Shown piece after piece: positions 7,326 through 27,662 of a stretch of 37,772 nt of DNA. Numbering within the stretch: the stretch's first letter is position 1; the number at the start of each line of letters is the position of its first letter. This stretch comes from Actinomycetota bacterium. Its GTDB lineage: Bacteria; Actinomycetota; Thermoleophilia; Gaiellales; Gaiellaceae. Below the pieces are notes generated by a model. That model was not told the DNA's origin and did not search any database. It saw only the letters and a program-made list of their open reading frames with translations. The translations under genes were made by a program, and so were the position numbers. Location of the stretch: NCBI GenBank assembly GCA_005885245.1, contig VAWR01000106.1, positions 1 through 37,772 on the forward strand. Direction: 5' to 3'.

Positions 7326-7331
7326 CGGCCT

Positions 7332-7770
7332 CGCGGCGAAAGCTGCGCTTTCGCCGCGATCTAAGGTACGCCGCATTCGCGGGGAACGTGCGCGGGCGGA
7401 GCCCGCGCACTTCTCTGGTGTTGGTGCTGGGCGGTTGTTCTCGAACCGTGCGGGCACGGGCGCCGGAGGCGTCCGCGCCCGCATCAGTCCGCCTGCGGCT
7501 AAGCCCGGCTTCGCCTGGTCTTAGCCTCCGGCCCTGATCTTGCTGGTGAACGCGCGTTCACCAGCAGCACCGAGGGCCGGAGCGTAGACCAGGCGCAGCC
7601 GGGCTACGAGGAGGCCGACCTCACACGGGCGGGGACGCCGCCGGCGCCGCCGCCCGCGGACCACTTCAAGCGGCAAGAACAAACCCGAAAGGGAGCGCAC
7701 GGGCTTCGCCCGTGCGCGTTCCGCGCGAAGCGCCGTACCCAAACCGCGCGAAAGCGAAGCTTTCGCGCGG
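7332..7770. repeat. Element A copy 1: 439-bp giant palindrome with nested hairpins
   Basis: A non-coding stretch built of mirror-ordered hairpins. Left arm: a 12-bp stem with TGC loop (7332-7358), the end motif GGTACGCCGCATTCGCG (7365-7381), a 10-bp stem GTGCGCGGGC with GGA loop (7388-7410), a 15-bp stem (7450-7482), and an arm starting GCCCGGCTTCGCCTGGTC (7503-7534). Centre: a perfect 26-bp palindrome (7541-7566). Right arm in reverse order: 7574-7604, 7626-7656, 7695-7717, the end motif 7717-7739, and a 12-bp stem with GAA loop (7744-7770). Copy 2 is at 13763-14152. It explains all of the gap between the genes ending at 7325 and starting at 7862 except the last 90 bases. Confidence 0.85.
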
Positions 7771-10384: not shown

Positions 10385-12115
10385 GTGAACGCCGCCGGAC
10401 TTCGCACGCTGCCGCTCGCGCGCGTGTACCTCGTCGCGGGCCTCATGGCCACTGGGCTGTACTTCGTCCTGCCGTGGAACTCGTTTTCGCAGGAGCTTCT
10501 CTACGACGCAATCGGTGCTTGCTCCGCGGTGGTCGTGGTGCTCGGGGCACGCATCAACCGGCCGCGGCAGATGCTGCCCTGGTATCTCTTCGGCGCAGGC
10601 CTGCTCGCTTTCAGCCTCGGCGACGTCGTCTTCAACCTCTACGCGCAGGTCTGGCACCGCGATCCGCCGGTGCCGTCCGTCGCGGACCTCTTCTATCTCG
10701 CCGGCTATCCGTTCCTGGCCGCCGGTCTGGTGGCACTCGTGTTGCGGATGCGGCGGCAGGACCGGCGGTTCGGTCTTCTCGATGCCGCGCTTCTGACCGT
10801 GGCCTTCGCGCTCTGCCAGTGGGTGTTCGTGATGAGGGGCGTCGCCAAGGGTTCGGCCTCCGGGACCGATCGAGCCGTGGCTCTGTCGTACCCGGTCATG
10901 GACATCGTCTTGCTCGCCGCGCTGGTCTTCTTTGCAATGACCCCGGCCTGGCGTACGGCCGCCTACCGGTATCTCGGCCTCAGCCTCGCGCTGATGCTTT
11001 TCGGGGACGAGGTCTACGGAGTGTCCCCGAACTCATATGCCGGGGCGTCCTGGCTCGACGCGGCCTGGCTGCTGTCCTACCTGTTCTGGGCGGTCGCAGC
11101 GCTCAGCCCGTCGATGCGCTCGCTGTCCGAACGGCCGCGCCCGAGAACGCCTGGGCTGACCAGATCGAGACTCCTCGTTCTCGGTGCGGCGCTCGGCACT
11201 GCCCCGGCCGTGATCGTCGCTGAGCGCGCGCTCGGCAGAGGAGTCGATGCGGACGCCGTCGCGATCGGAGCGACGGTCCTGTCGGCCCTGGTGCTTGCGC
11301 GCCTCGCCGGCATGGTCCGATCGCTCGATCGGCTGCGCGAGCGCGAACGCGTCGCGCGGGCGGAGGCCGAGTCGGCGCACCATCAGCTTGCCCTACGGAA
11401 CGAGCAGCTACTCGAGGCCGATCGCCTCAAGGACGAGTTCGTCGCGCTCATCTCGCACGATCTCCGTACTCCCTTGACTTCGATCATGGGCTATCTCGAG
11501 CTCACGCTCGGGGACGGGAACCTGACCGACGACCAGCGTGGCTATCTCGATGTCGTCGACCGGAATGCGGACCGTCTGCTCAGGCTCGTCAACGACCTCC
11601 TGTTCGTCGCCCGCCTCGAAGCCGGCCAGCTCGACCTCCATCCGAGCGAGCTCGATCTCGCCGCGATCGTCCGGCAGTCCGTGAGCGAGGCAGAGCCGAG
11701 GGCTGCTGCGAAGCGGATCGCTCTGACCTGCAACGCCGCCGAGCTGCCTGTGGTGCGGGCCGACAAGGGCCGTATCTTCCAGCTCCTCGACAACCTCGTC
11801 TCGAACGCGATCAAGTTCACCCCCGAAGGCGGCGACATCCAGGTCTCGGTCGCGCGGGTGAACGGCGCCGTGCAGCTCGAGGTCGCGGATACCGGCATCG
11901 GCATCGACTCGACGGAACAACTGCAGCTGTTCGAACGGTTCTTCCGCGCCTCGACTGCTGCGCAGCGCCAGATCCCCGGGACCGGACTGGGCCTCTACAT
12001 CGCCCGGGCGATCGTCGAAGCGCACGGCGGCTCGATCTCGGTCGACAGCGAGCTGGGCCGGGGAACCTCGTTCCTGATCGACCTACCCCTGTCCTCGGAG
12101 GCGGTGACGGCGTGA
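10385..12115 (+). CDS. Membrane sensor histidine kinase with about ten N-terminal TM helices
   Basis: A 576-residue kinase. Residues 1-310 hold about ten hydrophobic helices with the FVLPWNSFSQELLYDAIG and PSVADLFYLAGYPFLAAGL segments. From memory, this integral membrane sensor type also occurs in front of GGDEF/EAL enzymes in related actinobacteria. A short coiled coil leads to the HisKA domain, with phospho-acceptor His358 in ISHDLRTPLTSIMGYLEL. The HATPase follows with N box (NLVSNAIKFTPEGG), G1 (VADTGIGID), F box (LFERFF) and G2 (GTGLGLYIARAIV). All blocks are intact, so it should be active. The GTG start at 10385 follows AGAGAG. The single-domain receiver at 12300 is the natural partner, now separated from it by element B. 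Confidence 0.92.
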   Translation: MNAAGLRTLPLARVYLVAGLMATGLYFVLPWNSFSQELLYDAIGACSAVVVVLGARINRPRQMLPWYLFGAGLLAFSLGDVVFNLYAQVWHRDPPVPSVADLFYLAGYPFLAAGLVALVLRMRRQDRRFGLLDAALLTVAFALCQWVFVMRGVAKGSASGTDRAVALSYPVMDIVLLAALVFFAMTPAWRTAAYRYLGLSLALMLFGDEVYGVSPNSYAGASWLDAAWLLSYLFWAVAALSPSMRSLSERPRPRTPGLTRSRLLVLGAALGTAPAVIVAERALGRGVDADAVAIGATVLSALVLARLAGMVRSLDRLRERERVARAEAESAHHQLALRNEQLLEADRLKDEFVALISHDLRTPLTSIMGYLELTLGDGNLTDDQRGYLDVVDRNADRLLRLVNDLLFVARLEAGQLDLHPSELDLAAIVRQSVSEAEPRAAAKRIALTCNAAELPVVRADKGRIFQLLDNLVSNAIKFTPEGGDIQVSVARVNGAVQLEVADTGIGIDSTEQLQLFERFFRASTAAQRQIPGTGLGLYIARAIVEAHGGSISVDSELGRGTSFLIDLPLSSEAVTA

Positions 12116-12306
12116 GCGTCGCTCGCCTTCGGCTCGCTCCCGTGAGGGAAACCATGTTTCCCTCACGAGCTCCCTTCTTCAGGTGTCGCTTCCGCCCACG
12201 CGCCGCCGAGATCGCCGCGTGTGCGGAGGAGCAGGAAGGGGGAAACCTCACGGTTTCGCCCGACGCCCCTTCCCTCGCTCATCGGGCCGAGGCTGCCCAG
12301 TGAGCG
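12112..12306. repeat. Element B copy 1 at the kinase/receiver junction, flanked by GTGAGCG direct repeats
   Basis: GTGAGCG occurs at 12112-12118, holding the kinase stop TGA, and again at 12300-12306, holding the receiver start GTG. Between them are a perfect 12-bp hairpin with CAT loop (12141-12167; arm CGTGAGGGAAAC) and a second hairpin, GAAACC-TCAC-GGTTTC (12242-12257, extended by GGG/CCC). Deleting one repeat plus the interior would recreate a 4-base GTGA overlap of the two genes. Copy 2 at 27040-27192 shares its beginning, both hairpins and its end. Unlike copy 2, it has about 40 extra bases between the hairpins. Confidence 0.85.
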
Positions 12307-12680
12307 GCGGTCGGCTGGTGCTCGTCGCCGACGACGAGGAGGACATCCTCACCCTCGTAACGACGGTGCTCCAGAACGCCGGCCACCAGGTCGTACCCGT
12401 TCGCGACGGGGCGGAGGCGCTCGCGGCGGTCCGCGACCGCAAGCCGGACCTCGCGGTCATCGACATCTCCATGCCGGAGGTGGACGGCCTCGAGGTGCTT
12501 CGCCGGCTCCGTGCGGACGCAGAGACGAGCGAATTGCCCGTCGTCCTGCTGAGCGCTCAGGCCCAGGAGGCCGATGTCGCGCGCGGATTCGAGACGGGCG
12601 CCAGCGCCTACGTGAAGAAGCCGTTCAGCCCTCGCGAGCTGGCGCAACGCGTCAACGACCTGCTCGGCAGCTCCGATTAG
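12300..12680 (+). CDS. Single-domain response regulator (CheY-like receiver)
   Basis: A 126-residue receiver without an output domain. The acidic pocket is ADDEED (residues 10-15), the phospho-acceptor is Asp55 in LAVIDISMPEVDG, the switch Ser is in VVLLSAQ, and the conserved lysine is in YVKKPFS. All are present, so it should accept phosphate, most likely from the kinase just upstream. GTG at 12300 (VSGGRLVLVADDEED) is chosen because the receiver fold begins there. The frame is open upstream into element B, but that sequence is repeat DNA. Its stop overlaps the stop of the convergent OmpR-type gene by 4 bases. Confidence 0.88.
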   Translation: MSGGRLVLVADDEEDILTLVTTVLQNAGHQVVPVRDGAEALAAVRDRKPDLAVIDISMPEVDGLEVLRRLRADAETSELPVVLLSAQAQEADVARGFETGASAYVKKPFSPRELAQRVNDLLGSSD

Positions 12681-13762: not shown

Positions 13763-14152
13763 CGCGGCGAAAGCTGCGCTTTCGCCGCGATTGAGGTACG
13801 GCGCTTCGCGCGTAACGTGCGCGGGCGAAGCCCGCGCACTTTCATTGGTGTTGGTGCCTGCAGCTTGTTCGCTTCCGTGCGGGCACGGGCGCCGGAGGCG
13901 TCCGCGCCCGCATCGGTTCGCCTGCGGCTAAGCCCGGCTTCGCCTGGTCTTACCCTCCGGCCTTTGTGGTTCTGCTGGAAGCGCGCGTCCACCGACGCCA
14001 GAGCGGGCCGGAGCGTAGACCAGGCGCAGCCGGGCTACGAGGAGGCCGGACTCACTCGGGCGGCGACGCCTCCGGCGCCGCTGCCCGTGGACCGCGCGTT
14101 CCGCGCGAAGCGCCGTACCCAAATCCCGCGCGAAAGCGCAGCTTTCGCGCGG
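13763..14152. repeat. Element A copy 2: 390-bp giant palindrome between convergent genes
   Basis: It has the same order as copy 1. Left: a 12-bp hairpin (13763-13789), end motif GGTACGGCGCTTCGCGCG (13795-13812), a 10-bp hairpin with GAA loop (13817-13839), a 15-bp hairpin (13879-13911) and an inner arm (from about 13932). Right: an inner arm (about 14005-14034), a GC hairpin (about 14057-14087), the end motif 14097-14119 and a 12-bp hairpin with GCA loop (14126-14152). Its two end motifs are inverted repeats of each other. About 55 bases present in copy 1 are absent, including one right-arm hairpin. The last hairpin touches the stop codon of the AI-2E-type gene, so it can end both convergent transcripts. 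Confidence 0.85.
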
Positions 14153-22496: not shown

Positions 22497-23245
22497 CGTG
22501 CCGTCGCCTCGCTGTGATCGCCGCGGCGGGCGAGGAGTCCCTCGGGGGAAACCTCCCGGTTTCCCCCTTCCCCTTCCACATGCGCGCGGAGCTGCGCTGT
22601 CGCGCGCGCCAGCATGTCGTACAGGGGCTCGAGCTCAGGTCTGGCAGCGCGAATCGCCTGCCGGTGAGCCTCGACGGTCGACCAGTCACCGCGCTCGATC
22701 GGCCCCGTCAGCTCGAAGCCGTTGTCGATCGTCCGCCGCATGAGCGGAACGAGCGCTTCGGAGGGAGCGCCGGCGGCGCGGAACAGCTCAGCGGCGACCT
22801 GGTGAAGCGTGACGAGGTAGTTCGACGCGATCGCAGCGCCCGCGTGGTAGAGCGGCCGGACTTCGTCCGCCAACTCGAATGGTCGGAGTCCGAGCGTCTC
22901 CGCGAGCCAGAACCCGGCGCGCCGCGCTTCTTCGGACTCGCTCGTGACGGCTGCCCAGGCGCCGTCGAGCTGCTCTGGTCCCCGCGCGCGCGTGAACGTC
23001 TGCAGTGGATGGACGCCGAAGCGCCGCCGGTGCGGCTCCAGTGCAGCCAGCGGCGTGGCGCCCGAGACGTGCGCAACCCAGGGCCCGGGCTCGACCTCGG
23101 CGGCGACCTCGGCGATCGCCTGGTCGGGCACACACAGCAGGACGAGGCCGGCAGGTTCACCGGCGGCGACGCCCCGCTCGCTCAGGCGAGCAGAGACGGC
23201 CGAGCCGACGCGGCCGGAACCGATGACTCTGACACTCTCGAACAC
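22493..23245 (-). CDS. Rossmann-fold DUF2520 protein, candidate ketopantoate-reductase-like enzyme
   Basis: A 250-residue protein beginning with an NAD(P)-binding glycine motif (VRVIGSGRVGSAVSARL). A short Rossmann half is followed by HVSGATPLAALEPH and GVHPLQTF, then a helical C-terminal domain (YHAGAAIASNYLVTLHQVAA) of the DUF2520/COG5495 type. It resembles ketopantoate reductase and 6-phosphogluconate dehydrogenase relatives. It heads the panC-panB operon, and no recognised panE is present, so ketopantoate reduction is a plausible but unproven role. GTG 23245 follows GGAGCTAGGA. The last roughly 26 residues (including GEGGNREVSPEG) are encoded by a hairpin of the element B family and look like an added tail. 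Confidence 0.8.
   Translation of the reverse strand: MFESVRVIGSGRVGSAVSARLSERGVAAGEPAGLVLLCVPDQAIAEVAAEVEPGPWVAHVSGATPLAALEPHRRRFGVHPLQTFTRARGPEQLDGAWAAVTSESEEARRAGFWLAETLGLRPFELADEVRPLYHAGAAIASNYLVTLHQVAAELFRAAGAPSEALVPLMRRTIDNGFELTGPIERGDWSTVEAHRQAIRAARPELEPLYDMLARATAQLRAHVEGEGGNREVSPEGLLARRGDHSEATAR
22544..22567. repeat. Element B-type hairpin inside the end of the DUF2520 gene
   Basis: GGGGGAAACC-TCCC-GGTTTCCCCC is a perfect 10-bp stem with a 4-base loop. It is the same hairpin class as the second hairpin of element B copies 1 and 2 (GAAACC-TCAC-GGTTTC and GGAACC-TCCC-GGTTCC). It lies about 50 bases before the stop/start overlap with panC and is read in frame. Confidence 0.7.
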
Positions 23246-26044: not shown

Positions 26045-26475
26045 TCCAGTCTCACTCTCCCGAGGAGACGGAGCAGATCGCGGCGCGCCTTGCCGCCGAT
26101 CTGCAGCCGGGCGACGTGGTGACCGTGTCCGGCGAGCTCGGCTCCGGAAAGACGACGTTCGTTCGTGGAGCCTGCCGCGCGCTCGGCGTCGAGGGTCCCG
26201 TCACCAGCCCCACGTTCACGATCGGCCATCGCTATCGAGGTCGCGTCGACGTCTCCCATCTCGACCTGTTCCGCTTTCGCGACGTGTCAGCGGCGGAGTG
26301 GGGCGACCTGGAGCCCTACTTCGACGACGCGGTCGTGTTCGTCGAATGGCCCGAGGCTGGTACAGGGGTCCTACCGCTGCCGCGCGTCGAGGTATTGCTC
26401 GAGCACGGCGAACCGGGCAGTCGAGTTGTCACGATTCGGGGCGATGTTGATCCTGGCCTTCGACACGGCCACTGA
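26041..26475 (+). CDS. tsaE: t6A biosynthesis ATPase TsaE, apparent CTG start
   Basis: A protein of about 144 residues with the family opening SHSPEETEQIAARLAADLQP, Walker A GELGSGKT (31-38), the switch segment VTSPTFTIGHRY, HLDLFRF and VFVEWPE. TsaE is the ATPase that drives the TsaB-TsaD complex in making N6-threonylcarbamoyladenosine on ANN-decoding tRNAs. The conserved N-terminus leaves only CTG 26041, within a CTGA overlap with the glycosylase stop; no ATG, GTG or TTG exists in frame nearby upstream. The first downstream GTGs fall just before Walker A and would delete the N-terminal helix. The 3' end overlaps tsaB by 32 bases. Confidence 0.88.
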   Translation: MIQSHSPEETEQIAARLAADLQPGDVVTVSGELGSGKTTFVRGACRALGVEGPVTSPTFTIGHRYRGRVDVSHLDLFRFRDVSAAEWGDLEPYFDDAVVFVEWPEAGTGVLPLPRVEVLLEHGEPGSRVVTIRGDVDPGLRHGH

Positions 26476-27043
26476 CGTCGCGACGAGCGCGCTCGTCTCC
26501 GACGGCGAGGTGCTCGGCGAGCGGGTTTCGACCGCCGTCACCTTGCTCGAGGACCTCGATGCGCTGCTTCGACAGGCAGGGACCCAGACGCGGCAGGTGG
26601 AAGGGCTCGCGGTCGGGATCGGGCCGGGCAGCTTCACGGGGATCCGCATCGGGCTGGCGACGGCGCGTGGGCTCGCACTCGCGCTCGGGACGCCCGCTGC
26701 CGGCGTCTCCACGCTTGCGGCGCTCGCCGCCGGGGCTCCGCGCGCCGTTCCCGTCATCGATGCGCGGCGCGGAGAGGTCTTCGTCCTGCAGGAGGAACCG
26801 CGCGTGCTCGTGCCAGGCGCGTTCCGGCCGGCACCGGGGACGCTCTGCGTCGGCAGCGGGGCCGTCCGGTACCGGTCCGTGCTCGAAGCGGCCGGGGCCG
26901 AGATACCGCCCGACCGTGACGAGCGGCACCTGCCGCGGGCCCGTTTTCATGCGGCGCTCGCGCGAAACTTCGGACCGGCGGAGGCGCTCACGCCGCTGTA
27001 CCTACGGATCCCCGACGCTGATAGAACCCGAACACGGGCATGA
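26444..27043 (+). CDS. tsaB: t6A biosynthesis protein TsaB
   Basis: A 199-residue protein of the ASKHA fold: MLILAFDTATDVATSALVSD (phosphate-1-like loop), then GIGPGSFTGIRIGLATARGL, the hallmark TsaB motif, and GTPAAGVSTLAAL. It lacks the metal-binding HxxxH of TsaD and serves as its platform partner. The ATG at 26444 overlaps the end of tsaE. The stop lies inside the ATGAGCG repeat that flanks element B copy 2, so without that element tsaB and rimI would overlap by 4 bases. The C-terminus is somewhat short but complete. Confidence 0.93.
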   Translation: MLILAFDTATDVATSALVSDGEVLGERVSTAVTLLEDLDALLRQAGTQTRQVEGLAVGIGPGSFTGIRIGLATARGLALALGTPAAGVSTLAALAAGAPRAVPVIDARRGEVFVLQEEPRVLVPGAFRPAPGTLCVGSGAVRYRSVLEAAGAEIPPDRDERHLPRARFHAALARNFGPAEALTPLYLRIPDADRTRTRA

Positions 27044-27192
27044 GCGTCGCTCGCTTTCAGCTGGCTCCCGCGGGGGAAACCATGTTTCCCCCACGAGCCC
27101 CCTTCTTTGATGTACGGCCGGTGGAACCTCCCGGTTCCCCCGGCCGGCCCGCCCCCTCCCCCGCTCGTTGGGCAGAGGTTGCCCAATGAGCG
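27040..27192. repeat. Element B copy 2 at the tsaB/rimI junction, flanked by ATGAGCG direct repeats
   Basis: ATGAGCG at 27040-27046 (with the tsaB stop) and 27186-27192 (with the rimI start) flank the element. The interior starts TCGCTCGC, as in copy 1. It has a 9-bp hairpin GGGGGAAAC-CAT-GTTTCCCCC (27072-27092) followed by CCCTTCTT. It then has a 13-bp interrupted stem, GGCCGG-T-GGAACC with loop TCCC (27116-27145). It ends in GAGGTTGCCCA, matching GAGGCTGCCCA of copy 1. Collapsing it to one repeat restores the ATGA overlap. Confidence 0.85.
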
Positions 27193-27662
27193 CCACTGCG
27201 AACAAGGTCGACTTCAGGCGTCTCGAGCTGCGGGACCTCACCGCGATCGAGACGATCGAGCGTGCGTCCTATTCGACCCCCTGGTCGCGCTCGATGTTCG
27301 CGGGTGAGCTCGCCAAGCCGTCCTCGATCTCCCTGGGCGCGTTCGAGCCGGACAGCCGCGAGCTGCTCGGCTTCCTGATCATCTCCCGGTACGTCGACGC
27401 GTGGCACGTGATGAATCTCGCGGTCGCTCCCGAACACCGCCGCAAGCGCATCGCGACGAGCCTGCTCGAGCGGCTCTTCGAGCTCACCGCGGGCGAAGGC
27501 CGCCGCGGTTACACGCTCGAGGTCCGCATCTCCAACGACGTCGCGATCCGGCTGTACGAGCAGGCGGGATTCAAGGCGCGCGGGATTCGTCGCGGGTATT
27601 ACACGGACAACCGTGAGGACGCACTGATCATGTGGCGGGACCCCGAGCCGCACCGGGCGTGA
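27186..27662 (+). CDS. rimI: RimI-like GNAT N-acetyltransferase
   Basis: A 158-residue GNAT enzyme with VMNLAVAPEHRRKRIATSLLERL (acetyl-CoA pyrophosphate loop), LEVRISNDVAIRLYEQAGF and GYYTDNREDALIM, the RimI pattern. RimI acetylates the N-terminus of ribosomal protein S18; in t6A clusters it is a standard neighbour of tsaB and tsaD. ATG 27186 (MSATANKVDFRRLELRD) is chosen, although an in-frame ATG at 27168 lies in element B. Its stop overlaps the tsaD start as GTGA. Confidence 0.9.
   Translation: MSATANKVDFRRLELRDLTAIETIERASYSTPWSRSMFAGELAKPSSISLGAFEPDSRELLGFLIISRYVDAWHVMNLAVAPEHRRKRIATSLLERLFELTAGEGRRGYTLEVRISNDVAIRLYEQAGFKARGIRRGYYTDNREDALIMWRDPEPHRA

Follow-up and report, generated by a model that had tools for sequence, protein, structure and literature searches.

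A MIRU-like short interspersed element at stop/start overlaps in operons of a Gaiellaceae-like family that probably preserves translational coupling

The stretch of DNA analyzed here (hereafter the window; 37,772 nt) carries on its forward strand a tsaB-like gene (26165–27043; Pfam TsaD family PF00814), which ends with a TGA stop codon at 27041–27043, and a downstream rimI-like gene encoding a GNAT acetyltransferase (27186–27662; PF00583). An element designated copy 2 lies between them on the same strand and occupies 27040–27192 when both of its junction sequences are included. The heptamer ATGAGCG was indeed present at both ends of this copy (27040–27046 and 27186–27192), as had been claimed from inspection of the sequence. 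The entire copy reads as a single open frame: a bridging mini-ORF of 49 codons (MSVARFQLAPAGETMFPPRAPFFDVRPVEPPGSPGRPAPSPARWAEVAQ*; 27040–27189, forward strand) has its ATG on the tsaB stop codon and its TGA on the rimI start codon, giving the order tsaB–ATGA–(49 codons)–ATGA–rimI. Hairpin 1 (GGGGGAAAC-CAT-GTTTCCCCC; 27072–27092, forward strand), which has an in-frame internal ATG at its loop and covaries among copies, is followed on its 3′ side by the conserved CCCTTCTT tract (27100–27107, forward strand). RNA folding revealed hairpin 2 (CGGCCGG-t-GGAACC-TCCC-GGTTCC-c-CCGGCCG; 27115–27146, forward strand). The copy ends with a terminal hairpin of 13 bp (27162–27192, forward strand), in which the loop contains a Shine–Dalgarno-like GAGG and the 3′ arm, made up of the second ATGAGCG, includes the start codon and second codon of rimI. 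By RNA folding, the z scores of copies 2 and 1 were −6.2 and −3.9, respectively.

Copy 1 (12112–12306, forward strand) is located between genes for a histidine kinase and a response regulator; it has GTGAGCG at 12112 and 12300 and is bridged by an ORF of 63 codons (12112–12303, forward strand). Copy 2 matched copy 1 with an E value of 5.5e-21 in a search of their own genome. The two copies begin with a common 71-nt segment (12109–12179 and 27037–27107) that is 89% identical, and the blocks proposed to be common to copy 2 and the copy 1 region (12109–12312) were all found in both, namely TCGCTCGC, GGGAAAC-CAT-GTTTCCC, CCCTTCTT, a second hairpin, and the GAGG(C/T)TGCCCA end. A third copy in the window, partial and inverted (class B; 22510–22579, reverse strand; match with a class B copy at E = 2e-14), supplies in frame the C terminus (VEGEGGNREVSPEGL...) of a DUF2520 protein and ends where the gene for this protein overlaps panC in a GTGA. 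The bridging mini-ORF, the bridging inverted copies described below, this third partial copy, and the terminal 13-bp hairpin had not been part of the original prediction. The window also contains two long hairpin-rich repeats of a different family (7331–7770 and 13763–14152), which are about 87–89% alike over 110-nt blocks, match in inverted orientation as well, and contain GCGAAAGC..GCTTTCGC palindromes.

A query consisting of the initial 73 nt of copy 1, run against the genome of origin (3.2 Mb in 213 contigs), gave 34 matches over many contigs with E values from 3e-31 to 2e-4, indicating that the element is an interspersed repeat and not a chance pair. With the full-length query, 62 of the 151 nearest genomes gave matches, nearly all of which belonged to the window's own family. 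A search of 396 genomes of the phylum likewise confined the strong matches to this family, and, across the class and phylum, the matches outside the order were weak and partial only. The named carriers (GTDB contigs) were mainly soil and sediment MAGs labeled Actinomycetota, Thermoleophilia, Gaiellaceae, or Candidatus Gaiellasilicea. The element region of one contig labeled Acidobacteria (L123, QHWT01000143.1) seems identical to that of an actinobacterial MAG (L079, VAWI01000014.1), and the former contig is probably misbinned. A literature search for the same element in Gaiellales returned nothing relevant.

The idea that a discrete element has been inserted at an RTGA stop/start overlap was borne out by empty orthologous sites in relatives. 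The tsaB/rimI junction has no insert in seven congeners (e.g., ...GGGGATGAGCGCGACTGCG in G008) and is occupied in three genomes at four loci (G000, G001, and two loci in G005), where the inserts are 145, 195, 76, and 178 nt long. The element types at this junction differ, suggesting that the same overlap was hit more than once. In G009, the kinase and regulator genes meet in a bare ATGA overlap, and two sites of inverted copies are empty in the relatives G009 and G001.

The view that the RTGAGCG heptamer is a duplicated target held only in part. Apart from the TGA itself, the left and right junctions agreed more often than in permutations at position 1 (p = 0.004) and position 5 (p = 0.0009), and the short NTGA(N)C agreement between the two ends was significant but weak (p ~0.001); agreement at position 7 was no better than chance. 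In other copies, the two ends frequently disagree in the seventh base and in the second codon, so that NTGA, and no fixed heptamer, describes the junction in general. In addition, about 123 copies include 15 with flanking direct repeats of 13–72 nt, which exceed the 99th percentile of the null obtained by cross-pairing flanks; these repeats usually abut the element, and several of them include a gene start (ispH, ABC permeases). At ispH, the insert in G000 is accompanied by a 48-nt duplication, whereas the insert in G009 is not. The presence of such repeats in a subset of copies raises the possibility that the length of the target duplication varies and that survival has sifted the outcomes. 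Direct flanking repeats of 25–72 nt were seen at L082, L051, L110 (near 3883), L108, L105, and L066 and may be long target duplications.

The predicted preference for RTGA overlaps was evident in genome-wide searches: 31 of the 34 own-genome matches bridge stop/start junctions, as do 23 of the 24 non-edge copies in three congeners. Among the own-genome copies in sense orientation, 20 from the first 30 matches and three more without hairpin 1 form a bridge from NTGA at the upstream gene to RTGA at the downstream gene, and the copy at ispH (L011) also bridges, after its 48-nt duplication. A further seven own-genome copies are inverted and bridge in an open frame that encodes a quite different peptide, although these seven include a near-identical pair, possibly a single copy duplicated in the assembly, as well as a copy whose right junction differs slightly. 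The own-genome matches that do not bridge are two copies of a related non-bridging form (L028 and L030) and a fusion with thiM (L292). The start of the mini-ORF overlaps the upstream stop codon as ATGA, GTGA, or TTGA, and its stop overlaps the downstream start codon as ATGA or GTGA. Such an in-frame bridging mini-ORF explains why the occupied sites are stop/start overlaps.

We then considered all fetched loci together. The sole criterion for including a sense copy was an NTGA immediately to the left of the core; of the 70 copies so chosen, 65 were open to the right RTGA. The five exceptions comprise one with assembly Ns, two whose CTGA junction belongs to a different form, and two with early stops (L135 and L143), in both of which an in-frame internal ATG follows the stop. 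Random placement of each copy's substitutions left on average a fraction of about 0.68 of the copies open, so that 65 of 70 corresponds to P ~6e-7 if the copies are taken as independent; because the copies are related, this independence is only partial, and the length variants and the inverted copies provide separate evidence. The in-frame length variants range from 22 to 65 codons, meaning that insertions and deletions have occurred in multiples of three, and the remaining forward frames are open in 0 of 24 and 3 of 24 copies. The frame is retained even in deletion variants that have lost hairpin 1, indicating that it outlives the structure. The dN/dS-like ratio was 0.81 of the expectation, and codon positions 1 and 3 were similarly variable. 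The peptide is thus hardly constrained: the frame is kept, and the product is not.

The expectation that the stems are kept was examined by covariation analysis and was well supported. In 29 long copies, 16 base pairs had undergone double changes that keep pairing, compared with 6.6 in shuffles, and in 24 short copies the number was 11 compared with 5.0; neither count was reached in any of 500 shuffles. The signal was lost when the pairing partner was slid by one to three columns. The strongest covarying helix in the element family is the terminal hairpin, whose 3′ arm consists of the downstream start and second codon, and its stem is retained where the second codon differs, for example, GATCAT...ATGATC, GTTCAT...ATGAAC, and ACTCAT...ATGAGT. 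GGAG, GAGG, or AGGA was found within 20 nt of the downstream start in 30 of 56 copies, compared with 13.2 expected, and nearly all of these motifs were located at 6–8 nt.

We consider it likely that this is a short, non-autonomous, MIRU-like mobile element that inserts at 4-nt NTGA overlaps within operons and preserves translational coupling, the coupling being inferred from the reading frame and the layout of the junctions. Ribosomes finishing the upstream gene would re-initiate at the element's own start codon by termination–reinitiation at the NTGA overlap and would then translate the mini-ORF. A ribosome on the mini-ORF would in turn open the terminal hairpin, whose covarying stem includes the downstream start codon, permitting re-initiation at this codon, often with GGAG, GAGG, or AGGA at 6–8 nt. 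In this manner, coupling would be relayed across the insert, the operon would not be silenced, and the insertion would be nearly harmless; operons carrying an insert probably stay translated. The hairpin at the start codon could instead serve the DNA-level chemistry of insertion and not translation.

Other readings place the weight on the RNA, on the peptide, or on a known transposition system. The hairpins might constitute a regulatory RNA between operon genes (an attenuator, a riboswitch-like element, or a protein-binding leader), with the open frame being incidental. The strong fold of copy 2 and the covariation in all hairpins would fit this idea, but Rfam gave no match at the gathering threshold in the window, nor a permissive one at the site, and a search for terminators and promoters at the copy 2 junction found none. 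Moreover, the neighboring genes are unrelated (tsaB/rimI, kinase/regulator, ispH, and ABC permeases), orthologous sites are empty in close relatives, the deletion variants lacking hairpin 1 keep the frame, and the inverted copies present the opposite strand as mRNA; we regard a regulatory RNA as unlikely. It is even harder to credit that the element is a gene cassette whose mini-ORF yields a small protein with a function of its own. The N-terminal MSVARLRLAPVRETMFPSRAPFF is conserved in many copies, but the substitution pattern described above is that of a nearly unconstrained peptide, deletion forms of 22–38 codons lack most of it, the peptide of the inverted copies is unrelated, and neither Pfam nor NCBIfam gave a match to it. 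A REP/IS200–IS605-type origin, in which a Y1 (RAYT) transposase would mobilize the element and two hairpins of the same orientation would form its termini, is suggested by the presence of two such hairpins that resemble each other and each precede a CCCTTC tract, and by the occurrence of Y1 transposases in the own genome (six matches) and in 87 of 151 relatives. Hairpins of such elements flank Y1 genes, but the element's hairpin was absent from 150 kb of loci fetched around the Y1 genes, and some copies have no hairpin 1. Flanking target duplications, some of them long, are not expected of REP/IS200–IS605-type elements, but candidate duplications flank some copies of this element, and this origin too seems quite improbable.

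A further alternative concerns the origin of the sites and is compatible with the coupling model. Insertion may have been random in and around gene starts, with target duplications of about 5 to 70 nt, and only insertions that kept the two genes readable survived, so that the NTGA preference would reflect selection and not targeting. The 13–72-nt direct repeats, some including gene starts, and the ispH site, duplicated in one genome and not in another, speak for such a process. On the other hand, the left junction lies at −7 relative to NTGA in 58 of 72 sense copies, which selection alone would not force, and the tsaB/rimI overlap was seemingly hit more than once; random insertion therefore seems to us a possible but less probable account of the sites. 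More speculatively, and with considerable doubt on our part, the element may represent an undescribed mobile class whose insertion duplicates about 5–70 nt of target and generates the 5′ arm of the terminal hairpin by copying the target start region in inverted form, as if by a hairpin-primed or RNA-templated process. The product would be a ribosome-binding hairpin that is portable, adapts itself to its site, and links the translation of whatever gene lies downstream to that of the gene upstream.

We favor the MIRU-like coupling element, and the wider literature comparison yielded only MIRU and the Rickettsia palindromic elements (RPE) as relatives in kind. MIRU stands for mycobacterial interspersed repetitive units, reportedly described by Supply et al. 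in 1997. They are described as mobile repeats that insert at start codons and whose internal ORF is coupled to the next gene at −4 nt (PMC12548453), with a unit size of 40–100 bp (PMC2734929). Both MIRU, as so described, and the present element are short dispersed repeats between operon genes with start-codon insertion and a coupled internal ORF, and the MIRU type locus, like copy 1, lies in a sensor kinase/response regulator operon. The present element likewise inserts at NTGA overlaps in operons and has an internal ORF overlapping both neighbors. It differs in that it is about 70–200 nt long (main forms ~140–190 nt, with only the deletion forms within the MIRU range), has covarying hairpins, is not tandem as a rule, and bridges in inverted orientation too. 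Since size and structure differ and the likeness is drawn from published descriptions and not from sequence, we do not claim that this element, found in one Gaiellaceae-like family, is a MIRU. To our knowledge, a mobile repeat with a coupled mini-ORF that survives in operons has been described solely in mycobacteria, as MIRU. A second such family in a distant actinobacterial class would turn a single case into a testable rule, namely that selection on operon translation decides which repeats spread. This family comes with orthologous sites that lack the insert, numerous length variants that stay in frame, and bridging by sense and inverted copies alike, and its copies constitute dozens of natural replicates for the measurement of translational coupling.

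MITEs and ERIC/REP-type repeats resemble the element in being non-autonomous, present in high copy number, hairpin-forming, and located in transcribed intergenic places. The element differs from them in its insertion at stop/start overlaps and in having no terminal inverted repeats, the best match between its ends being no better than in shuffled sequences; no transposase partner or autonomous relative was found in our searches. As candidates for a longer autonomous version, matches to the left end only were inspected, and they turned out to be shorter bridging copies or N-terminal fusions and not transposons. RPE are mobile palindromic elements of about 150 bp that keep the reading frame of the host gene, and nearly half of them lie inside ORFs, giving fused proteins (PMC10969869). 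In contrast, the present element mostly forms a separate ORF between genes, bridging being the rule, and fusion is seen only in some decayed copies.

These fusions illustrate how repeats may become protein termini, N-terminal in thiM, argD, and a comEC-like gene and C-terminal in the DUF2520 protein. The products of thiM (L292, G000:C47 near 26787), the comEC-like gene (L296, G009:C74 near 26451), and argD (L297, G009:C134 near 1999) begin with MSVARLRxAP, which corresponds to the element's first codons; judging from this match, they appear to carry decayed copies turned into N termini. In addition, a related form of the element (GCACGGGGGAAACCATGTTTCCCCCGTG, CCCCCTTCTT, then GGCTCCCGCCGGGCAAAGCCCGGCTCCGCCGG) was observed in non-bridging places at L068, L075, L095, L097, L125, and other loci, with several of its copies apparently beside tRNA genes or past gene ends.
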